A stretch of DNA of 50,492 nt from contig JAFWVV010000036.1 in the NCBI GenBank assembly GCA_017518225.1, positions 1 to 50,492 of the forward strand, in the 5' to 3' direction. Source of the DNA: Oscillospiraceae bacterium. GTDB taxonomy: Bacteria > Bacillota > Clostridia > Oscillospirales > Oscillospiraceae. Below, piece by piece: positions 316-7,952 of this stretch. The translations under genes and the position numbers were made by a program. The first letter of the stretch is position 1; every line of letters starts with the position of its first letter. The notes beneath the pieces are model-generated. The model made no database searches and was not told where the DNA came from. It was given only the letters and a program-made list of their open reading frames with translations.

Positions 316-449
316 ATGAACGGGGGTGATTTTTCGTGAGCTTCCTCCACTTTGCCAGCCGGGACGATCCGGCGGGCCCCCATCACGGCGGCCCGGTGAG
401 GGCACGCCTCGACAGAAACCGCAACGAATCGGAAAGCAGGTGCCAACAC

Positions 450-3338
450 ATGAAACACAAAACGAACCGGATCCTGAGCCTTTTCCTCGCCCTCGTGCTG
501 ACGGCGGGGCTGCTGCCTCTTTCGGCGCAAGCGGAGTCTCCCGGAACCTTTTCGGAGCTGCAACAGGAGATTAACCTAACCCCCACCGATGGTACTCTTA
601 AGCTTGAGAAGGATTATAAATTTGAAGACGGTTTTTCCGCCGATGGAATTGTTATTGACAGATCAATGACCATCAAACTGAACGAACATACCATTGACGG
701 CAACGGCATGGCCCGCATCTTCTTTGTCAATAATGAAGTCACGCTTACGCTCGAGGGCCCCGGAACGATCAAGGGAGGAGCGGCTGTTGGAGGCGGCGGC
801 ATCTATGCAGACGCCTACGCGGCGCTTTCCCTGCAGAATGTGGAGATCTCGGGGAATGTCGCCGCAGGAGGCGGCGGCGGCATCTATGCAGGCGACAACG
901 TGACGCTTTCCCTGCAGAACGTGGAGATCTCGGGGAATGTCGCCGCAGGAGGCGGCGGTATCTATGCAGACGCCTACGCGGCGCTTTCCCTGCAGAACGT
1001 GGAGATCTCGGGGAATGTCGCCGCAGGAGGCGGCGGCGGCATCTATGCAGGCGCCAACGCGAAGCTTTCCCTGCAGAACGTGGAGATCTCGGGGAATACC
1101 GCCGATGCACGAGGTGGCGGCGTATTCCTCAGTTCGGGGGCGTGGGGGCTCGAGATCGGCGGCGAAACGATCGTTTCCGGCAATACCGGCGGCGCCGCAG
1201 CAGACAACGTGTATCTGTATGGGCCGCAGCTCACGGTGACCTCCCCATTGACGGGCAAGGCCAAAATCGGACTCTCGCCTGACTCCGACGCAATCAGCTC
1301 TCATTCGACGAATGAGAATTTTGATCGCATGATGCCTCTCGGAACAGGGTTCAACACGCATCATCCGGGGGCTGACATCGAAGCCTTCTTTGTCAGCGAC
1401 GACCAAAGCATATGCATAAGCAATCGTGAGCTAAACAACTACGATATGTTTTGTTCCAGGCACACCCATCAAATGGAGTGTCGGCCGAACCCGGAGAACG
1501 GGGCCGAGCTTGAGTACGTATGCACAGCGGGATCCTGCCCGATGCCCTCCCCCTTCGCGAAGCTGACCCTCGTGGCCGAAAATCGCGTTTACAACGGGCA
1601 GAAGTATGACGATGCGTGGCTGGACGATCTCGCGCAGTTCAATCGGATCACCGGCCTCAACCTCGTGCTTTCTGATGATAACGCGATCTATCTCCACTAC
1701 CATAGTGGAGAGGATACAGGCTTTTCGTTTTCGCCCCTTTTTCCGGGATCGTATTGGGCAGTGTTTGTTGCGAATGGCGATTCCTCTAAAACGATCAGAA
1801 AGAACTTTCAGATCACGCCCGCCCCCCTGACGATCCGGCCCGAGACGCAGACCTGCGCCTACAACGGGGAGCTTCAGGGGCCGGGGGATATTATATATAC
1901 CGATTCGGAGGCCGCGGCGGCCGTCGCGGCTTCGGGCCTGGCGGATGGCGACCGGGTGACTTCCGTCACCATCGACGGCCAGGGACGGGAGATCGGCACA
2001 TACGAGCTGGAAATCACCGGCCTGCGCATCGAGAATTCCGAGGGGGACGACGTAACGGCCTGCTACGCTATCACTTACGAAAAAGGGAGTCTCGTGATCA
2101 AAAAGCCGCTGACCCTCGGCCTCACCATGGACGGCTGGGCGACGGGCGGCAGCGGAAGAGACCCCGTTTACCCCGTTCTCACCGGAAACGATGGGAACGG
2201 CGACGTGACCTATAAATACAAGCCGAAGGGCGCGGACGACGCGGCCTACAGCCCGGACATTCCGACCGCCGCGGGGGATTACACCGTCCGGGCCACGGTC
2301 GCAGAAACGGAATACCACCTCGGCGGCGAGAAAACGGCGGACTTCACCATCAGCCACTTCAGCCTCGAGGGGATAAACCTCAAAGTCAACAAGTCGGAAA
2401 AGAAACATCTCGATTGTAATATAGACTACGTCTGGGACGCCAAGCCGCCGTATGGTTGGGATGCTCTTTCCTCTTCCTTTCTGGAGGACATAGATGGCAA
2501 TACGCTGCCCTGGGACGACGAACCGACCCCCGGCGCGATCCGCTATATGCAGACGTTTGTAAGAGTCCCGACAAATGACGCGGTCGACTTCATCAATCTC
2601 TCCGGGATGAAAAAGGAAGACATTCACATCGTGCAGTGTTCCGATGTGACCGTCAGTGTGCACGAGCTCAAAAGATTCGTGGAAGGAGTCGGAGAAGTCG
2701 GAGAAGACGAAGAAGTCGAAGGTGTTTGGCGGATCTGGGTGCGGTTCAAGGTGGTGCAGAACGAAGCCCCTCCCACCGGCATCACGCTCGACAGCACCGC
2801 CGCGAAGACGGAGTATTTCATCGGCGAGGCGCTTGACGTATCCGGCCTTGTGCTGACGGCAAGCTATTCCGACAACAGCACGAAGAAGATCGACGTCACA
2901 AAGGAGATGGTCTCCGGCTTCGACGGCAGCAAAACCGGCAAGCAGACGCTGACCGTGACCTACGAGGGCTTCGAGGCCAAATATGAGGTCGAGGTGAAGG
3001 CGCAGCAGAACACGCCTACGCCTACGCCTACGCCCACACCGACGCCTAATCCGACGCCTACGCCCACGCCGACGCCGACGCCTATTCCGACGCCGACGCC
3101 TACGCCTACGCCGACGCCTACGCCTACGCCCACACCGACGCCAACGCCGACGCCGACACCGACGCCGACGCCTGCGCCGACACCGGTGCCCACACCCAAG
3201 CCGAGCGAAAAGCCCACCTCGCCCAAAACCGGCGACGAGAGCAATCTGTCGCTGTGGGGCAGCCTTGCGGTGCTGTCTCTGGCCGCGGCGGTCGTCCCGC
3301 TGGCGTACCTGCGCAAGCGCAAAGAACATAATAAATAA
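450..3338 (+). CDS. Large LPXTG-type cell-wall surface protein with beta-helix repeats
   Basis: A 962-residue secreted protein. Start 450 is chosen because it follows AGGTG and opens a clear signal peptide (MKHKTNR, hydrophobic core, SAQA cleavage near residue 28); the frame is open from 336 but that stretch does not look coding. Order of parts: parallel beta-helix/adhesin-like region near residues 60-250 with four almost identical 26-27 residue repeats (118-223); a middle region; two MBG-like Ig domains (about 450-545 and 547-630); a Big_3-type Ig domain (about 772-851); a Pro-Thr spacer (about 855-916); then SPKTGD at 924-929, a hydrophobic helix and an RKRKEHNK tail. This is a sortase sorting signal with Ser in place of the first Leu of LPXTG, a form common in Clostridia. 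Likely a wall-anchored adhesin; the ligand is unknown. No sortase gene lies in the window. Confidence 0.85.
801..1118 (+). repeat. Tandem duplication of a 159-bp coding block
   Basis: Two adjacent copies (801-959 and 960-1118) of a 159-bp block, each holding two beta-helix rungs of 26-27 residues with the core [10 protein letters not shown]. The rung pattern is A-B-A-B: A carries ADAYAAL and B carries AGDN or AGAN. The copies are nearly identical at DNA level, so the duplication looks recent. The length is a multiple of three, so copy-number change keeps the frame and only lengthens or shortens the surface protein. Confidence 0.9.
3013..3198 (+). repeat. Hexanucleotide Pro-Thr microsatellite
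   Basis: A run of imperfect six-base units (ACGCCT, ACGCCC, CCGACG types) encoding about 60 residues of alternating Thr-Pro with single Asn, Ile, Ala and Val interruptions. It forms the extended wall-spanning spacer before the sorting signal. Hexamer slippage would keep the frame. Confidence 0.9.
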
Positions 3339-3509: not shown

Positions 3510-4379
3510 ATGGATTGCTTGGAGCTGGCGCTGCAGCTGTTGCCGCATCGCTATCTGGACAGAGCGCACCGGGAGATGCTGTCCGGTGCCGAAGAGCTGC
3601 GTCTGCGCACGGGACAGGCCTTGACCATGCTGCGCCTTGGCAGAGAATATCCCGTTCCCGGCGAGCCGATCCGCAGGGAGGAGCTTCTGCGCACCTTGGA
3701 AAAGGCGACGGGCGCGTCGCTGCACAGCGCGTCGCAGGCGCTCTCACGCGGTTATATCGACTATCACGGCGTGCGCGTCGGCGTATGCGGTCATGTTGTG
3801 TGCCGGGACGGGCAGGTCACGGGCTTTCGCTCGGTCAGCTCTCTGGCGCTGCGAATTGCGCGGCCATGTCATGGCTGCTGTGACGAAATCTGGCGAAGGA
3901 TGCGGCAGGAGGGCTTTGGAAACGTTTTGATTCTCTCGCCGCCCGGTGGCGGAAAAACGACGGCGCTGCGTGAGCTGATTCGCCTTTTGTCTTTGTCCGG
4001 CTGGCGAATCGGATTGGTGGACGAGCGCGGCGAGGTGGCGGCGATGGAGGCGGGGGAAGCGGGCTATGAGTTGGGCGCGCATTGCGACGTAATCAGCGGC
4101 GTGTCCAAATTGGCAGGAAGCATGATGCTGCTGCGCGGCATGAATCCGCAGTTGATTGCGGTGGACGAAATCACACAGCCGGAGGATCTGGAGGCGATGC
4201 GTGAGATTGTCGGCTGCGGGGTGCGTCTGCTGGCAACGGCACATGCGCGAGAGTTGGGGGACTTGCGGCGAAGGCCGTTGTACGGCAGGCTGCTGGATGA
4301 GCGACTGTTCAGCGAGACGATCCTGATTCGCATGGATGAGACGGGACGCAGTTACCAATGGAGGAGGCTTGGCGCGTGA
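3510..4379 (+). CDS. spoIIIAA: Stage III sporulation protein AA (SpoIIIAA), AAA+ ATPase
   Basis: The 289-residue putative secretion-type ATPase of the SpoIIIA-SpoIIQ channel that links mother cell and engulfed forespore. Start 3510 follows GGGAGGGAG and matches the family length; the frame is open further upstream but that overlaps the preceding terminator. Walker A (PPGGGKT) lies near residue 143, a conserved VDERGEVAA follows, and a Walker B-like LIAVDEI lies near 215. First gene of an eight-gene operon with overlapping ends. By analogy with Bacillus it should be sigma-E controlled; CATATCTT at 3463-3470 resembles a sigma-E -10, but I see no convincing -35. Confidence 0.95.
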   Translation: MDCLELALQLLPHRYLDRAHREMLSGAEELRLRTGQALTMLRLGREYPVPGEPIRREELLRTLEKATGASLHSASQALSRGYIDYHGVRVGVCGHVVCRDGQVTGFRSVSSLALRIARPCHGCCDEIWRRMRQEGFGNVLILSPPGGGKTTALRELIRLLSLSGWRIGLVDERGEVAAMEAGEAGYELGAHCDVISGVSKLAGSMMLLRGMNPQLIAVDEITQPEDLEAMREIVGCGVRLLATAHARELGDLRRRPLYGRLLDERLFSETILIRMDETGRSYQWRRLGA

Positions 4380-4885
4380 GGCTGTTTGGCGCGATATGTG
4401 TGATGCTTGCGGTCTCCGCGTTCGCGTGCTCACTGATATCCAATGAAAAGCGCGCGCTCCGATGTCTCGGCACGCTCTGTTGTGCGCTGGAGCGAATGCG
4501 TGCAGAGCTGACGACACGCCTGTGTCCGACGCAGGATCTGTTGCATGAGGCGGCAAATACCACAGAGGGGGAAACGGCGCAATTCTTTTTTCAAATTCTG
4601 GAAGGGATGGACAGCCTGACGACAAAAAGCTTTGCCGAGCTGTGGCAAGAGGCTGTGGAGACCAGCTTTTCTTTACTTCCCGAAACGGAGAAAAATGCGT
4701 TGATCACGCTTGGCGGATCGCTTGGACGCTATGCGCTGGAAGAACAGCTGTCGGCAATCGACCGTTTTCTGCTCGTGGGTCAGGCCGCTTTTCAGGCGCG
4801 CAGGGCTGCCTTGCCGGACAAGCGGCGCTTGATTGTCGCACTCTGCGAAACAGCGGGTATTTTTCTCTGCCTTCTATTGCTTTAG
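4376..4885 (+). CDS. spoIIIAB: Stage III sporulation protein AB (SpoIIIAB)
   Basis: 169 residues from a GTG start that overlaps the TGA of spoIIIAA (GTGA). The ATG at 4358 is in frame but sits on the Shine-Dalgarno GGAGGAGG (4360-4367), so GTG 4376 is preferred and gives the usual family length. It has an N-terminal membrane helix (about residues 3-19) and a C-terminal hydrophobic helix (IFLCLLLL), with a helical, acidic middle that resembles type II secretion GspF/PilC-like folds. Structural part of the forespore channel in the mother-cell membrane. Confidence 0.92.
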   Translation: MRLFGAICVMLAVSAFACSLISNEKRALRCLGTLCCALERMRAELTTRLCPTQDLLHEAANTTEGETAQFFFQILEGMDSLTTKSFAELWQEAVETSFSLLPETEKNALITLGGSLGRYALEEQLSAIDRFLLVGQAAFQARRAALPDKRRLIVALCETAGIFLCLLLL

Positions 4886-4894
4886 GAGACTTGC

Positions 4895-5089
4895 ATGGAC
4901 ATTGATCTGATTTTCAAGATTGCTGCAGTAGGAATACTTGTGGCTGTGCTCAACATTCTCCTGCAGCGCTCCGGGCGCGAGGAGCAGGCGCTGATGACGA
5001 CAATTACGGCGCTGGTTGTCGTTCTGATGATTGTCGTGCAAAAAATCAGCGAGCTGTTTACGCTGATCAAAACGCTCTTCGGCCTCTGA
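4895..5089 (+). CDS. spoIIIAC: Stage III sporulation protein AC (SpoIIIAC)
   Basis: A 64-residue protein with two membrane helices (about residues 5-22 and 35-50), the normal length for the family. TAGGAGA precedes the ATG. The stop shares its last base with the next start (TGATG), so translation is coupled to spoIIIAD. Membrane subunit of the SpoIIIA channel. Confidence 0.93.
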   Translation: MDIDLIFKIAAVGILVAVLNILLQRSGREEQALMTTITALVVVLMIVVQKISELFTLIKTLFGL

Positions 5090-5475
5090 TGGAACTGATG
5101 ATGCGTGTGGCGGCAGCGGCGCTGTGCGCTCTTGTTGCAGGACTGTTAATCCGGCAAAAGAACCCGGAGCTTGCGTTGACGCTCAGTGTTGGCGCGGTAG
5201 CGGTAATTACGCTGGCGGCGCTGCGCATGGGTACGGGTCTGAACGATCTGCGTGTGCTGCTGCGGGAGCGTTTCGGTCTTAGCGAGATCTATATGCAGCC
5301 AATGCTGAAGTGTCTGGCAACGGCCATTGTGAGCAAGCTGACGGCGGAGCTTTGCCGTGATCACGCACAGACGGCTGCTGCTGCGGCGGTGGAACTGGCC
5401 GGCAGTCTCTGTGCGCTGGGAATTGTAATGCCGCTGCTGGTGACGATGCTGAAGATGGTGGGGGATTTTCTTTGA
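5089..5475 (+). CDS. spoIIIAD: Stage III sporulation protein AD (SpoIIIAD)
   Basis: 128 residues, largely hydrophobic, with about four membrane helices and a short polar central part (RERFGLSEIYMQPMLK). Length and hydropathy match SpoIIIAD. It overlaps spoIIIAC by one base and spoIIIAE by four. Membrane subunit of the forespore channel. Confidence 0.93.
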   Translation: MELMMRVAAAALCALVAGLLIRQKNPELALTLSVGAVAVITLAALRMGTGLNDLRVLLRERFGLSEIYMQPMLKCLATAIVSKLTAELCRDHAQTAAAAAVELAGSLCALGIVMPLLVTMLKMVGDFL

Positions 5476-6572
5476 AAAAAATTGTGATGACCTTGCTTTT
5501 TCTCCCATTTTTTCTGGTGCCGGTTTATGCACAGGACTTGGGCGAAGCGGCGGGGGTGGAGCTGGAAGCTAACGCTGTGCGTGAAGCGCTGCCGGAAGAG
5601 ATTCAGGAGGTCGGCGGGACGCTGGATATGAGCGGGCGTTACGATGGTCTGGGCGCACTGGAACGTCTGTGGAGAAAATTGCTTGAGAACATAAGCGAAC
5701 GCCTGCGCGCCGACGCATGGGAAGCGGTGCGACTTTTGGTGGTTGTTTTATTCTGCTCAGTTTCCGGCAGCTTGATCAAGGAAAAGCGCCAGCAGGAGAT
5801 CCTGGAGCTGTCAGGCTGTGCAGTTGTGTCATTGCTGCTGGCAGGCGGTGTTGACAGCATGGTAAAAGAATGCTTCTCCTCTCTCGTTGAATTGAACGAT
5901 TATGCGCGTGTCGCGCTTCCTGCGGTCTATACGGCGGCAGCGGCCGGCGGCGCCGTCGCTTCTGCTTCGGTACGCTATGCCAGCGCCTGCTTTGCGCTCG
6001 ACTTGATGATGAGCGCAGCGGAAAAGCTGTTGCTGCCGGTGATCAGCGCCCTGATTGCCATGTCCGTCTGCGCGGCTGTGTTTGATAACGCCATGCTTCG
6101 TGCGACCATCAACGGGGCAAAAAAGCTGGCAGCACTGATGATGAGTGGGATGACGATCGCTTTGACTGCCATGCTGTCGGTGACGGGGCTTGTCAGCAGC
6201 GCGGCGGACGCGGCGGCGATTCGTGCGGCAAAGACGGTGATCTCCGCGTCTTTGCCCATCGTTGGCGGGATTATGGCGAATGCGGCCTCGTCGGTTTTTG
6301 CCGCGGCAGATCTGGTAAAAAACTCCGCTGGTGCGTTTGGTATGGTGGCTGTTTGCGCCTTGTGTCTGGCTCCATTTGCCGCGCTGGCTGTGCGCCGGTT
6401 TTTCTTTGGGGTCATTGCGGCCGCTGCGGATATGACGGCAAGCGGACGGATTGCGAGACTGTTTCACGATATGTCCGCTGTTTTGACGCTGCTGCTCGGC
6501 TTGCTCGGCTCGTTTGCGCTTATGCTGTTTTTCTCTGTCGCTGCGGCGCTGCGTTCGGTGGGAACGGCATGA
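5472..6572 (+). CDS. spoIIIAE: Stage III sporulation protein AE (SpoIIIAE)
   Basis: 366 residues, polytopic. The likely start is TTG 5472, which overlaps the spoIIIAD stop (TTGA) and follows GGTGGGGGA; it gives a signal peptide (KKIVMTLLFLPFFLVPVYAQ). An ATG at 5487 is the alternative but would shorten the peptide. After a soluble segment of roughly 70 residues there are about seven Ala/Val-rich membrane helices. Large membrane subunit of the SpoIIIA complex. Its stop overlaps spoIIIAF (ATGA). Confidence 0.93.
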   Translation: MKKIVMTLLFLPFFLVPVYAQDLGEAAGVELEANAVREALPEEIQEVGGTLDMSGRYDGLGALERLWRKLLENISERLRADAWEAVRLLVVVLFCSVSGSLIKEKRQQEILELSGCAVVSLLLAGGVDSMVKECFSSLVELNDYARVALPAVYTAAAAGGAVASASVRYASACFALDLMMSAAEKLLLPVISALIAMSVCAAVFDNAMLRATINGAKKLAALMMSGMTIALTAMLSVTGLVSSAADAAAIRAAKTVISASLPIVGGIMANAASSVFAAADLVKNSAGAFGMVAVCALCLAPFAALAVRRFFFGVIAAAADMTASGRIARLFHDMSAVLTLLLGLLGSFALMLFFSVAAALRSVGTA

Positions 6573-7051
6573 GCGGGGGCATTCGGCTGTTATGTGCGCT
6601 TTCCGTGCTCTGCGGACTTGCGCTCAGTTTAGCGCCGGAGGGCGGCGTCAAACGGATGATGAGCCTGTGCAGTGCGGTTCTTCTGATGCTCTCAATGCTC
6701 AGTTTGATCCGCGATTTGGATATCGGTGCTTATTCGCTGGAGATGGCGCGCTATCGGGAACTGGGACGGGAGATTAGCGCGGAGGGAGAGGACAGCCGCG
6801 CCAGGCTCCAGCGCGCAGTCATAGAAAACGAGTGCGAGCAGTATATTCTTCATAGGGCGGAGAGCATGGAAATCCGGGCGCTTGAGGCGTCGGTTACGGC
6901 GCGTTGGGATTCGACGGGCTGCTGGCTGCCGATTTCCGTAGAGCTGTCAGGCAATGTAAGCGAAGCGGATAGAGAAACGCTGGCGGAATGGATTGAAACG
7001 GATTTGGGAATTGGCAAGGACAAGCAGAGCTGGAGGGAACATGGATCTTAA
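6569..7051 (+). CDS. spoIIIAF: Stage III sporulation protein AF (SpoIIIAF)
   Basis: 160 residues: two N-terminal membrane helices (about residues 4-20 and 27-44) and a soluble C-terminal domain (VIENECEQYILHRAE region followed by beta strands), which in the family is a ring-building-motif domain in the intermembrane space. ATG 6569 overlaps the spoIIIAE TGA; an open frame upstream of this in another phase of spoIIIAE is not coding. The gene overlaps spoIIIAG by 11 bases. Confidence 0.9.
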   Translation: MSGGIRLLCALSVLCGLALSLAPEGGVKRMMSLCSAVLLMLSMLSLIRDLDIGAYSLEMARYRELGREISAEGEDSRARLQRAVIENECEQYILHRAESMEIRALEASVTARWDSTGCWLPISVELSGNVSEADRETLAEWIETDLGIGKDKQSWREHGS

Positions 7052-7361
7052 ATTGTTGATGAAAAAGCTGGCGCCGATCAAATATCCGCTGTTGATTTTG
7101 GCCTTTGGCTTGTTGCTGTTGCTGATGCCGTCCGGAAAAAAACAAGCGCCAGGCGTGGAGGGCGACGCGCAGCTGGCTCAGCTTCTTGCAAGCGCAGAGG
7201 GCGTTGGACAGACGCAGCTGCTGGTCTCTGAGCACGGCGTTGTTATTGTGTGCGAGGGCGCGGAAAACGCGGCGGTGAAGCTGGATATTATTCGCGCCAT
7301 AGGATCATATACTGGTTTCGGAGCCGACAAGATCACCATTTTGCATCTGACGGATCAATGA
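7041..7361 (+). CDS. spoIIIAG: Stage III sporulation protein AG (SpoIIIAG), compact form
   Basis: Only 106 residues, against about 229 in Bacillus subtilis. ATG 7041 follows TGGAGGG. One membrane helix (about residues 14-29), then a soluble part running directly from GVGQTQLLVSEHG (54-66) to VVIVCEGAENAAVKLDII (67-84). In the usual protein a long segment separates these two blocks; in B. subtilis it forms the beta-triangle that builds the large SpoIIIAG ring. Here it is missing, leaving a bare ring-building fold. The neighbours identify it securely: it lies between spoIIIAF and spoIIIAH and the frame is intact. See findings. Confidence 0.88.
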   Translation: MDLKLLMKKLAPIKYPLLILAFGLLLLLMPSGKKQAPGVEGDAQLAQLLASAEGVGQTQLLVSEHGVVIVCEGAENAAVKLDIIRAIGSYTGFGADKITILHLTDQ

Positions 7362-7918: not shown

Positions 7919-7921
7919 ACG

Positions 7922-7952
7922 AAAAAGCCCGGAAAAAATCCGGGCTTTTTGT
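7922..7952 (+). terminator. Terminator of the spoIIIA operon
   Basis: AAAAAGCCCGG pairs with CCGGGCTTTTT around a short A-rich loop, ending in T5 at 7946-7950. It starts four bases after the spoIIIAH stop. Confidence 0.9.

Follow-up and report, generated by a model that had tools for sequence, protein, structure and literature searches.

In Bacillus subtilis, SpoIIIAH pairs with SpoIIQ. Among the rings compared here, only those of SpoIIIAG and of ring-building motif (RBM) 3 of FliF carry, to our knowledge, an insert of the kind discussed below. These rings contain 23 copies of FliF RBM2, 24 of PrgK and of PrgH, 30 of SpoIIIAG and 34 of FliF RBM3, and the SpoIIIAG ring has a cylindrical beta-barrel (accessible sections of PMC8092281). 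In FliF RBM3 (flagellar S-ring, beta-collar), an insert is predicted between strands 1 and 2 of the motif (excerpts of PMC4768692). The accessible part of a review covers the operon order and membrane anchoring of B. subtilis SpoIIIAG and attributes most of the 30-mer ring's cup to the insertion (PMC6934232). An earlier note on the present DNA had credited a beta-triangle, formed by this insertion, with making the 30-subunit ring; this goes further than that part of the review, and the oligomerising fold is the ring-building motif itself. The name beta-triangle comes from that note, and no paper pairing the term with SpoIIIAG was found in the literature searched. SpoIIIAG helps to build the channel that feeds the developing spore; the cargo of this A-Q channel is still debated (accessible part of PMC12251134).

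In the window, by which we mean the whole analysed stretch of 50,492 nucleotides, Pfam and NCBIfam profiles together with open reading frames (ORFs) identify a full spoIIIA operon, running in order from spoIIIAA to spoIIIAH on the forward strand (Table 1). The spoIIIAG gene lies where an orthologue is expected, between spoIIIAF and spoIIIAH, and its start overlaps the 3' end of spoIIIAF, which stops at 7051. These two flanking genes are each detected at 138 of 139 loci; the spoIIIAF of the window itself gives an insignificant Pfam hit only (E 0.16) and no hit in the NCBIfam search. Two minor features adjoin the operon. Just upstream of spoIIIAA, at 336-3338, lies an ORF of 1000 aa with GGGIYA-type repeats and a long Thr-Pro tract, whose C-terminus (SPKTG followed by a hydrophobic tail) resembles that of a sortase-anchored surface protein. 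Directly after spoIIIAH, at 7920-7950, a terminator-like hairpin followed by a T run is visible by eye.

Table 1. Genes of the spoIIIA operon and parts of the short SpoIIIAG, in window positions.
Feature	Position	Strand	Basis or remark
spoIIIAA	3393..4379	+	TIGR02858, E 1.6e-55; start uncertain, profile match from ORF residue 67 on
spoIIIAB	4358..4885	+	TIGR02833, E 1.5e-9
spoIIIAC	4895..5089	+	TIGR02848, E 2.7e-23, above cut-off
spoIIIAD	5089..5475	+	TIGR02849, E 1.9e-9
spoIIIAE	5472..6572	+	TIGR02829, E 7.6e-23
spoIIIAF	6569..7051	+	Position, and profile matches to same-place ORFs in relatives
spoIIIAG, insert-less form, 106 aa	7041..7361	+	ORF, ATG at 7041, TGA ending 7361, frame open; TIGR02830 match to residues 65-101 only
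Probable transmembrane segment of SpoIIIAG (N-terminal, hydrophobic, residues 14-30)	7080..7130	+	Reading of the sequence; aligned with the long-form anchor
GVGQTQLLVS, the block preceding the deletion point; by homology, strand 1 of the ring-building motif	7200..7229	+	Profile alignments
SEHG turn in place of the beta-triangle insert	7227..7238	+	Block-gap measurement across genomes
GVVIVCEGA...KITILHL; by homology, the ring-building motif from strand 2 through helix 2 to strand 3	7236..7349	+	Profile alignments
spoIIIAH, 179 aa	7379..7918	+	Pfam PF12685, E 5e-30

The SpoIIIAG of this operon has the 106 residues given in the earlier note, and the block GVGQTQLLVS is indeed joined almost directly to the next one, GVVIVCEGAENAAVKL (7236-7283), with the two residues EH between them; the gap amounts to 3 when it is counted between the patterns applied to all genomes. 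The protein shares with B. subtilis SpoIIIAG (structure 5WC3) the homologous blocks on either side of the insert, the place in the operon and the N-terminal anchor, which is recognizable by its hydrophobic residues and by alignment with the long forms. It has no insert between strands 1 and 2, where the B. subtilis protein carries about 63 residues that correspond to the beta-triangle and cup. Two separate stretches of 5WC3 (5wc3_A), chain residues 41-71 and 135-170, are matched by a profile of the short forms (E 6.9e-4 overall), so that about 63 residues (72-134) are left without a counterpart as the insert, and 3 residues stand in their place. A mixed profile of short and long forms matches the same chain in one piece (E 1.8e-10) with extra residues at the insert site, and the alignment of the short with the long profile (E 2.4e-39), which contains one large gapped stretch at that site, establishes the homology of the ring-building core to long SpoIIIAG. 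Alignment with B. subtilis and with relatives from the family, a check proposed from the start, finds the insert gone rather than merely short.

A phmmer search of PDB sequences with the 106-aa protein gives no match, and no Pfam family is found at E 1, thus no PF12685 match either, whereas the neighbouring SpoIIIAH does match that family. The TIGR02830 equivalog profile scores 22.6 bits and stays below its curated cut-off of 147.7 bits; since the long relative L102, the one long form scored in full, also remains below it at 67.1 bits, the cut-off does not separate short from long. At E <=1e-3, TIGR02830 matches 62 of 67 short forms (best E 2.7e-9), and all 65 of the 65 long forms match (best E 4.2e-41).

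The distribution of the short form was followed by counting the residues between the two pattern-matched blocks, with one locus per genome. The 195 genomes with a gap value, a sample that over-represents the genus of the window (g1) with 32 genomes, comprise 55 with a gap of <=3, 4 with 8-11, 4 with 14-35 and 132 with >=36. Five gaps (L005, L008, L009, L050, L129) were set by hand after sequence inspection; for L076, where the pattern had matched within the insert, 39 was entered, and for L247 and L245, on account of their long match spans, 52. Later counts by eye (about 40, 52 and 56 for L076, L247 and L245) leave the classes unchanged. Two further genomes, G349 and G482, gave no gap value and stand outside the 195; both have the insert by eye. 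Within the genus, SpoIIIAG is matched in 44 of 61 genomes including that of the window, with no internal stop in any of the 44; the gap is <=3 in 32/32 genomes measured from DNA, again including the window's, and the other 13 matched genomes have match spans that by eye are too short for an insert. The loss of the insert from an operon otherwise intact and with an open frame, as first noticed in the window, is in this way a conserved form of the genus.

In the family as a whole, SpoIIIAG is matched in 151 of 200 genomes, and DNA was obtained from 83 genera. The long insertion, which the earlier note had ascribed to the known SpoIIIAG proteins, is the usual state in this family but not a universal one, as the gap is <=11 residues in 58 of the 138 genomes measured, 32 of these 138 belonging to the window's own genus. 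Complete loss is seen in the family genera g1, g102, g51, g106, g15, g73, g42, g40, g94, g95 and g6 and, outside the family, in g367 of another family (G695, L269), while near-complete loss is found in g84, in g80 and in one of the two g20 members obtained. Partial reduction to 22-26 residues occurs in three other families of the class (L170 and L171 of f15 g200, L172 of f55 g284, L173 of f4 g115). SpoIIIAG is matched in 204 of 291 genomes of the class sample, 206 of 245 of the order sample and 168 of 199 of the phylum sample; among the matches listed, the insert is present by eye except in the window's own genome, in the reduced genomes just named and possibly in G942, a genome of the phylum sample whose perhaps reduced SpoIIIAG lies at a contig end.

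In 43 of the 55 genomes with a gap of <=3, the turn in place of the insert reads S[DE]xG, and in 54 of the 55 it starts with S; its final G is found in 55/55, being required by the pattern used. The end point is convergent, the same kind of turn recurring in separate lineages, as SDNG or SENG in g6 and as TDKG in g367. In many long forms Ser or Thr and Gly already flank the insert, so that a deletion joins both strands via about the shortest possible hairpin.

The most likely interpretation of these sequence comparisons is that the short protein is a working SpoIIIAG that forms a ring without a cup, deletion having reduced the insert to a tight turn, mostly S[DE]xG. The remaining protein would consist of a membrane anchor and a linker, followed by a single ring-building motif without interruption, on the plan of the equivalent part of SpoIIIAH. 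It would still contribute a ring to the A-Q channel, anchored in the membrane of the mother cell, and this ring would lack the vertical beta-barrel, or cup; fold and ring are here deduced from profiles. The cup would then be dispensable in the short-form lineages, or made redundant by something else. A compensating insert was sought in SpoIIIAE, SpoIIIAF and SpoIIIAH, and none of the three shows growth in aligned length when the main clade of short forms, described below, is compared with the long forms of the family (medians 326 versus 326, 148 versus 146 and 176 versus 189, respectively).

Aligned with SpoIIIAH, the short profile runs through 51 columns with no break where the insertion used to be (hhalign probability 81, E 1.2e-5), whereas the long profile aligns over 32 C-terminal columns only (probability 5.7). 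The unbroken alignment indicates that, once the insert is gone, the ring-building motif is continuous and follows the SpoIIIAH plan, strand-turn-strand-helix-strand; it supports the initial description of the protein as a bare ring-building domain, whatever the size of the ring. SpoIIIAH differs in being longer N-terminally and in being encoded by a separate gene of the same operon. FliF, compared by description only, keeps its strand 1-2 insert, which the short SpoIIIAG does not. A shortened insert is likewise retained, unlike in the short form, by neighbouring genera of the same family and with the same operon, where it has 39-41 residues.

From few cases, the comparison of ring copy numbers makes a smaller ring thinkable, and it is possible, if doubtful, that the channel has no SpoIIIAG beta-barrel at all and either a ring nearer the 23-24-fold symmetry of the insert-free motifs or a mixed ring with SpoIIIAH. 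Should the channel lack the barrel, the cup would be a removable add-on, lost outright on about three occasions and almost entirely on three more.

The unbroken alignment with SpoIIIAH could also be taken to mean that the short protein forms no ring of its own and, with its motif now SpoIIIAH-like, joins or caps the ring of SpoIIIAH (or SpoIIIAF) as one of its subunits. The linker between anchor and motif is also shorter in the main short clade, with a median of 26 residues against 37 in the long forms of the family. The core similarity to SpoIIIAH, however, follows simply from the presence of a ring-building motif in each, some short-form genomes have a long linker, and the short profile has no useful similarity to SpoIIIAF (probability 2.1); we regard such a role as unlikely. 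A shortened linker was also considered as a second consistent change of the short form and was rejected, as it ranges from 16 to 47 residues among the short-form genomes.

A protein that has lost so much may alternatively be decaying, the insert having disappeared along with the channel or with sporulation in gut lineages. Part of the genus fits this description: 17 of its 61 genomes have no SpoIIIAG match, and among these SpoIVA is absent in 16 and a full-length SpoIIQ-like protein in 13. Three of them (G200, G214, G250) lack SpoIIIAG, SpoIVA and the SpoIIQ-like protein although each is more than 90% complete, which makes a loss of sporulation in parts of the genus probable. Moreover, the dN/dS of SpoIIIAG in the genus (median 0.29, maximum 0.63, 364 pairs with dS<2) lies above that of SpoIIIAH (0.12, 226 pairs), the one protein with which it was compared. 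These values nonetheless show that short SpoIIIAG is under purifying selection in the genus, and its frame is open in all 44 matches. Core identity relative to that of SpoIIIAE in same-genus pairs gives log ratios of 0.24-1.26 in 10 short genera and of 0.25-1.69 in 14 other genera (one of which, g200, includes partly reduced forms), and since the two ranges are the same, the core is not visibly relaxed. SpoIIIAG is also usually kept together with other spore genes: a full-length SpoIIQ-like protein (E<1e-60) is found in 41 of the 44 genus genomes with SpoIIIAG versus 4 of the 17 without, and SpoIVA in 38 of 44 versus 1 of 17, which leaves 3 and 6 carriers, respectively, without these proteins. 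Finally, a dozen genera would hardly have ended up with the same 3-residue turn through decay, and we consider decay very unlikely as an explanation of the short form.

The genome of the window itself carries SpoIVA and a SASP gene as well as a SpoIIQ-like protein, which we take to be SpoIIQ; this protein begins with a hydrophobic segment, and its M23 domain contains HNGID and HLHF, presumably the metal-binding motifs. Within the family, the GerM-type domain (PF10646) has a patchy distribution (120 of 200 genomes) and is absent in the four members of the genus sampled (G000, G004, G109, G174). Genomes with short SpoIIIAG carry it less often, in 11 of 29 cases against 89 of the 122 other matched family genomes, which were taken as long though not all were measured (Fisher p 0.0008), and the channel may thus differ in more than one part. 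When kinship is allowed for, 5-6 independent pairs remain and the sign test is not significant, and for this reason a link between GerM and short SpoIIIAG is not claimed.

The history of the cup-less SpoIIIAG was traced on a tree of SpoIIIAE, SpoIIIAF and SpoIIIAH. Of the 188 genomes that had all three proteins, 115 rows were picked from six families of the order, with up to 10 for the window's genus, 2 for each other genus of the family and 1 per genus elsewhere; G021 and G172 were dropped as too short, the window was added, and the single genome of family f80 is not among the rows. The resulting alignment of 116 rows and 656 columns gave, by a quick method, an unrooted tree on which short, intermediate and long forms require 7 changes, compared with about 30 for shuffled labels. 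Strongly supported branches alone force at least 6 changes between long and not long. The main short clade comprises 23 rows (SH-aLRT 95) and shares one strongly supported part of the tree with the neighbouring genera g54, g35, g88, g79, g4, g70, g23 and g67, which are those with the trimmed inserts; in the family's remaining long forms on this tree, the insert measures 43-59 residues.

A single origin of the completely short forms of the family is rejected (p-AU 0.006). Separate losses in g94 and g95, which were also considered, are unsupported, as placing these genera with the main clade has the higher likelihood (p-AU 0.70). On the simplest count, the insert was lost completely three times (in the main clade together with g94 and g95, in g6 and in g367) and nearly completely three times (in g84, in g80 and in G181). 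Several long branches are of unsure place, among them G181 and the neighbours of both f79 rows, and the separateness of the f79 loss rests on the family label and the quick tree, not on the AU test. The loss had at first been taken as peculiar to one lineage; instead, a clade of about 8-10 genera has it, and several other lineages seem to have lost the insert independently.

Change counts on an unrooted tree cannot tell gain from loss, and the insert-less form might in principle be ancestral, with the insert gained repeatedly. The insert is widely present outside the family, which makes loss the simpler reading: the class and phylum matches listed carry it, save the window's own genome and a few partly reduced ones. 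The inserts of the family also align with that of B. subtilis, and several long-form genera near the main short clade have trimmed ones, so we judge an ancestral short form to be highly improbable. An assembly or sequencing error, for which one could cite the fragmented state of the window's genome (1.91 Mb in 84 contigs, 86% complete), has a negligible chance of explaining the short gene, as the insert is absent in all 32 measured genomes of the genus and, by eye, in separately named assemblies; its absence is not an assembly artefact.

No description of an insert-less SpoIIIAG was found in the literature searched, most of it outside subscription, and the form may be noted in subscription papers. 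Deletions of the cup segment that recur naturally, with the rest of the operon kept, amount to ready-made constructs, with which one can ask whether the cup serves ring assembly, transport or only contact with other parts. Because the loss is repeated and the rest of the protein is kept, nature may already have tested the need for a cup.

Gene-calling rules tuned to long SpoIIIAG may miss the short form. A published predictor of sporulation for gut genomes counts annotated spoIIIAG among its 16 informative genes (accessible part of PMC12536801), and our guess is that this predictor overlooks genomes with short SpoIIIAG. The carriers form a group of bacteria from gut and rumen. Scanning named genomes yields 46 loci with short forms by eye, titled Oscillospiraceae, Ruminococcaceae, Clostridiales, Eubacteriales or Clostridia, and in one case 'Candidatus Scatomorpha'; all named carriers are uncultured or metagenome-assembled, and many of the 46 loci bear rumen or gut sample names.
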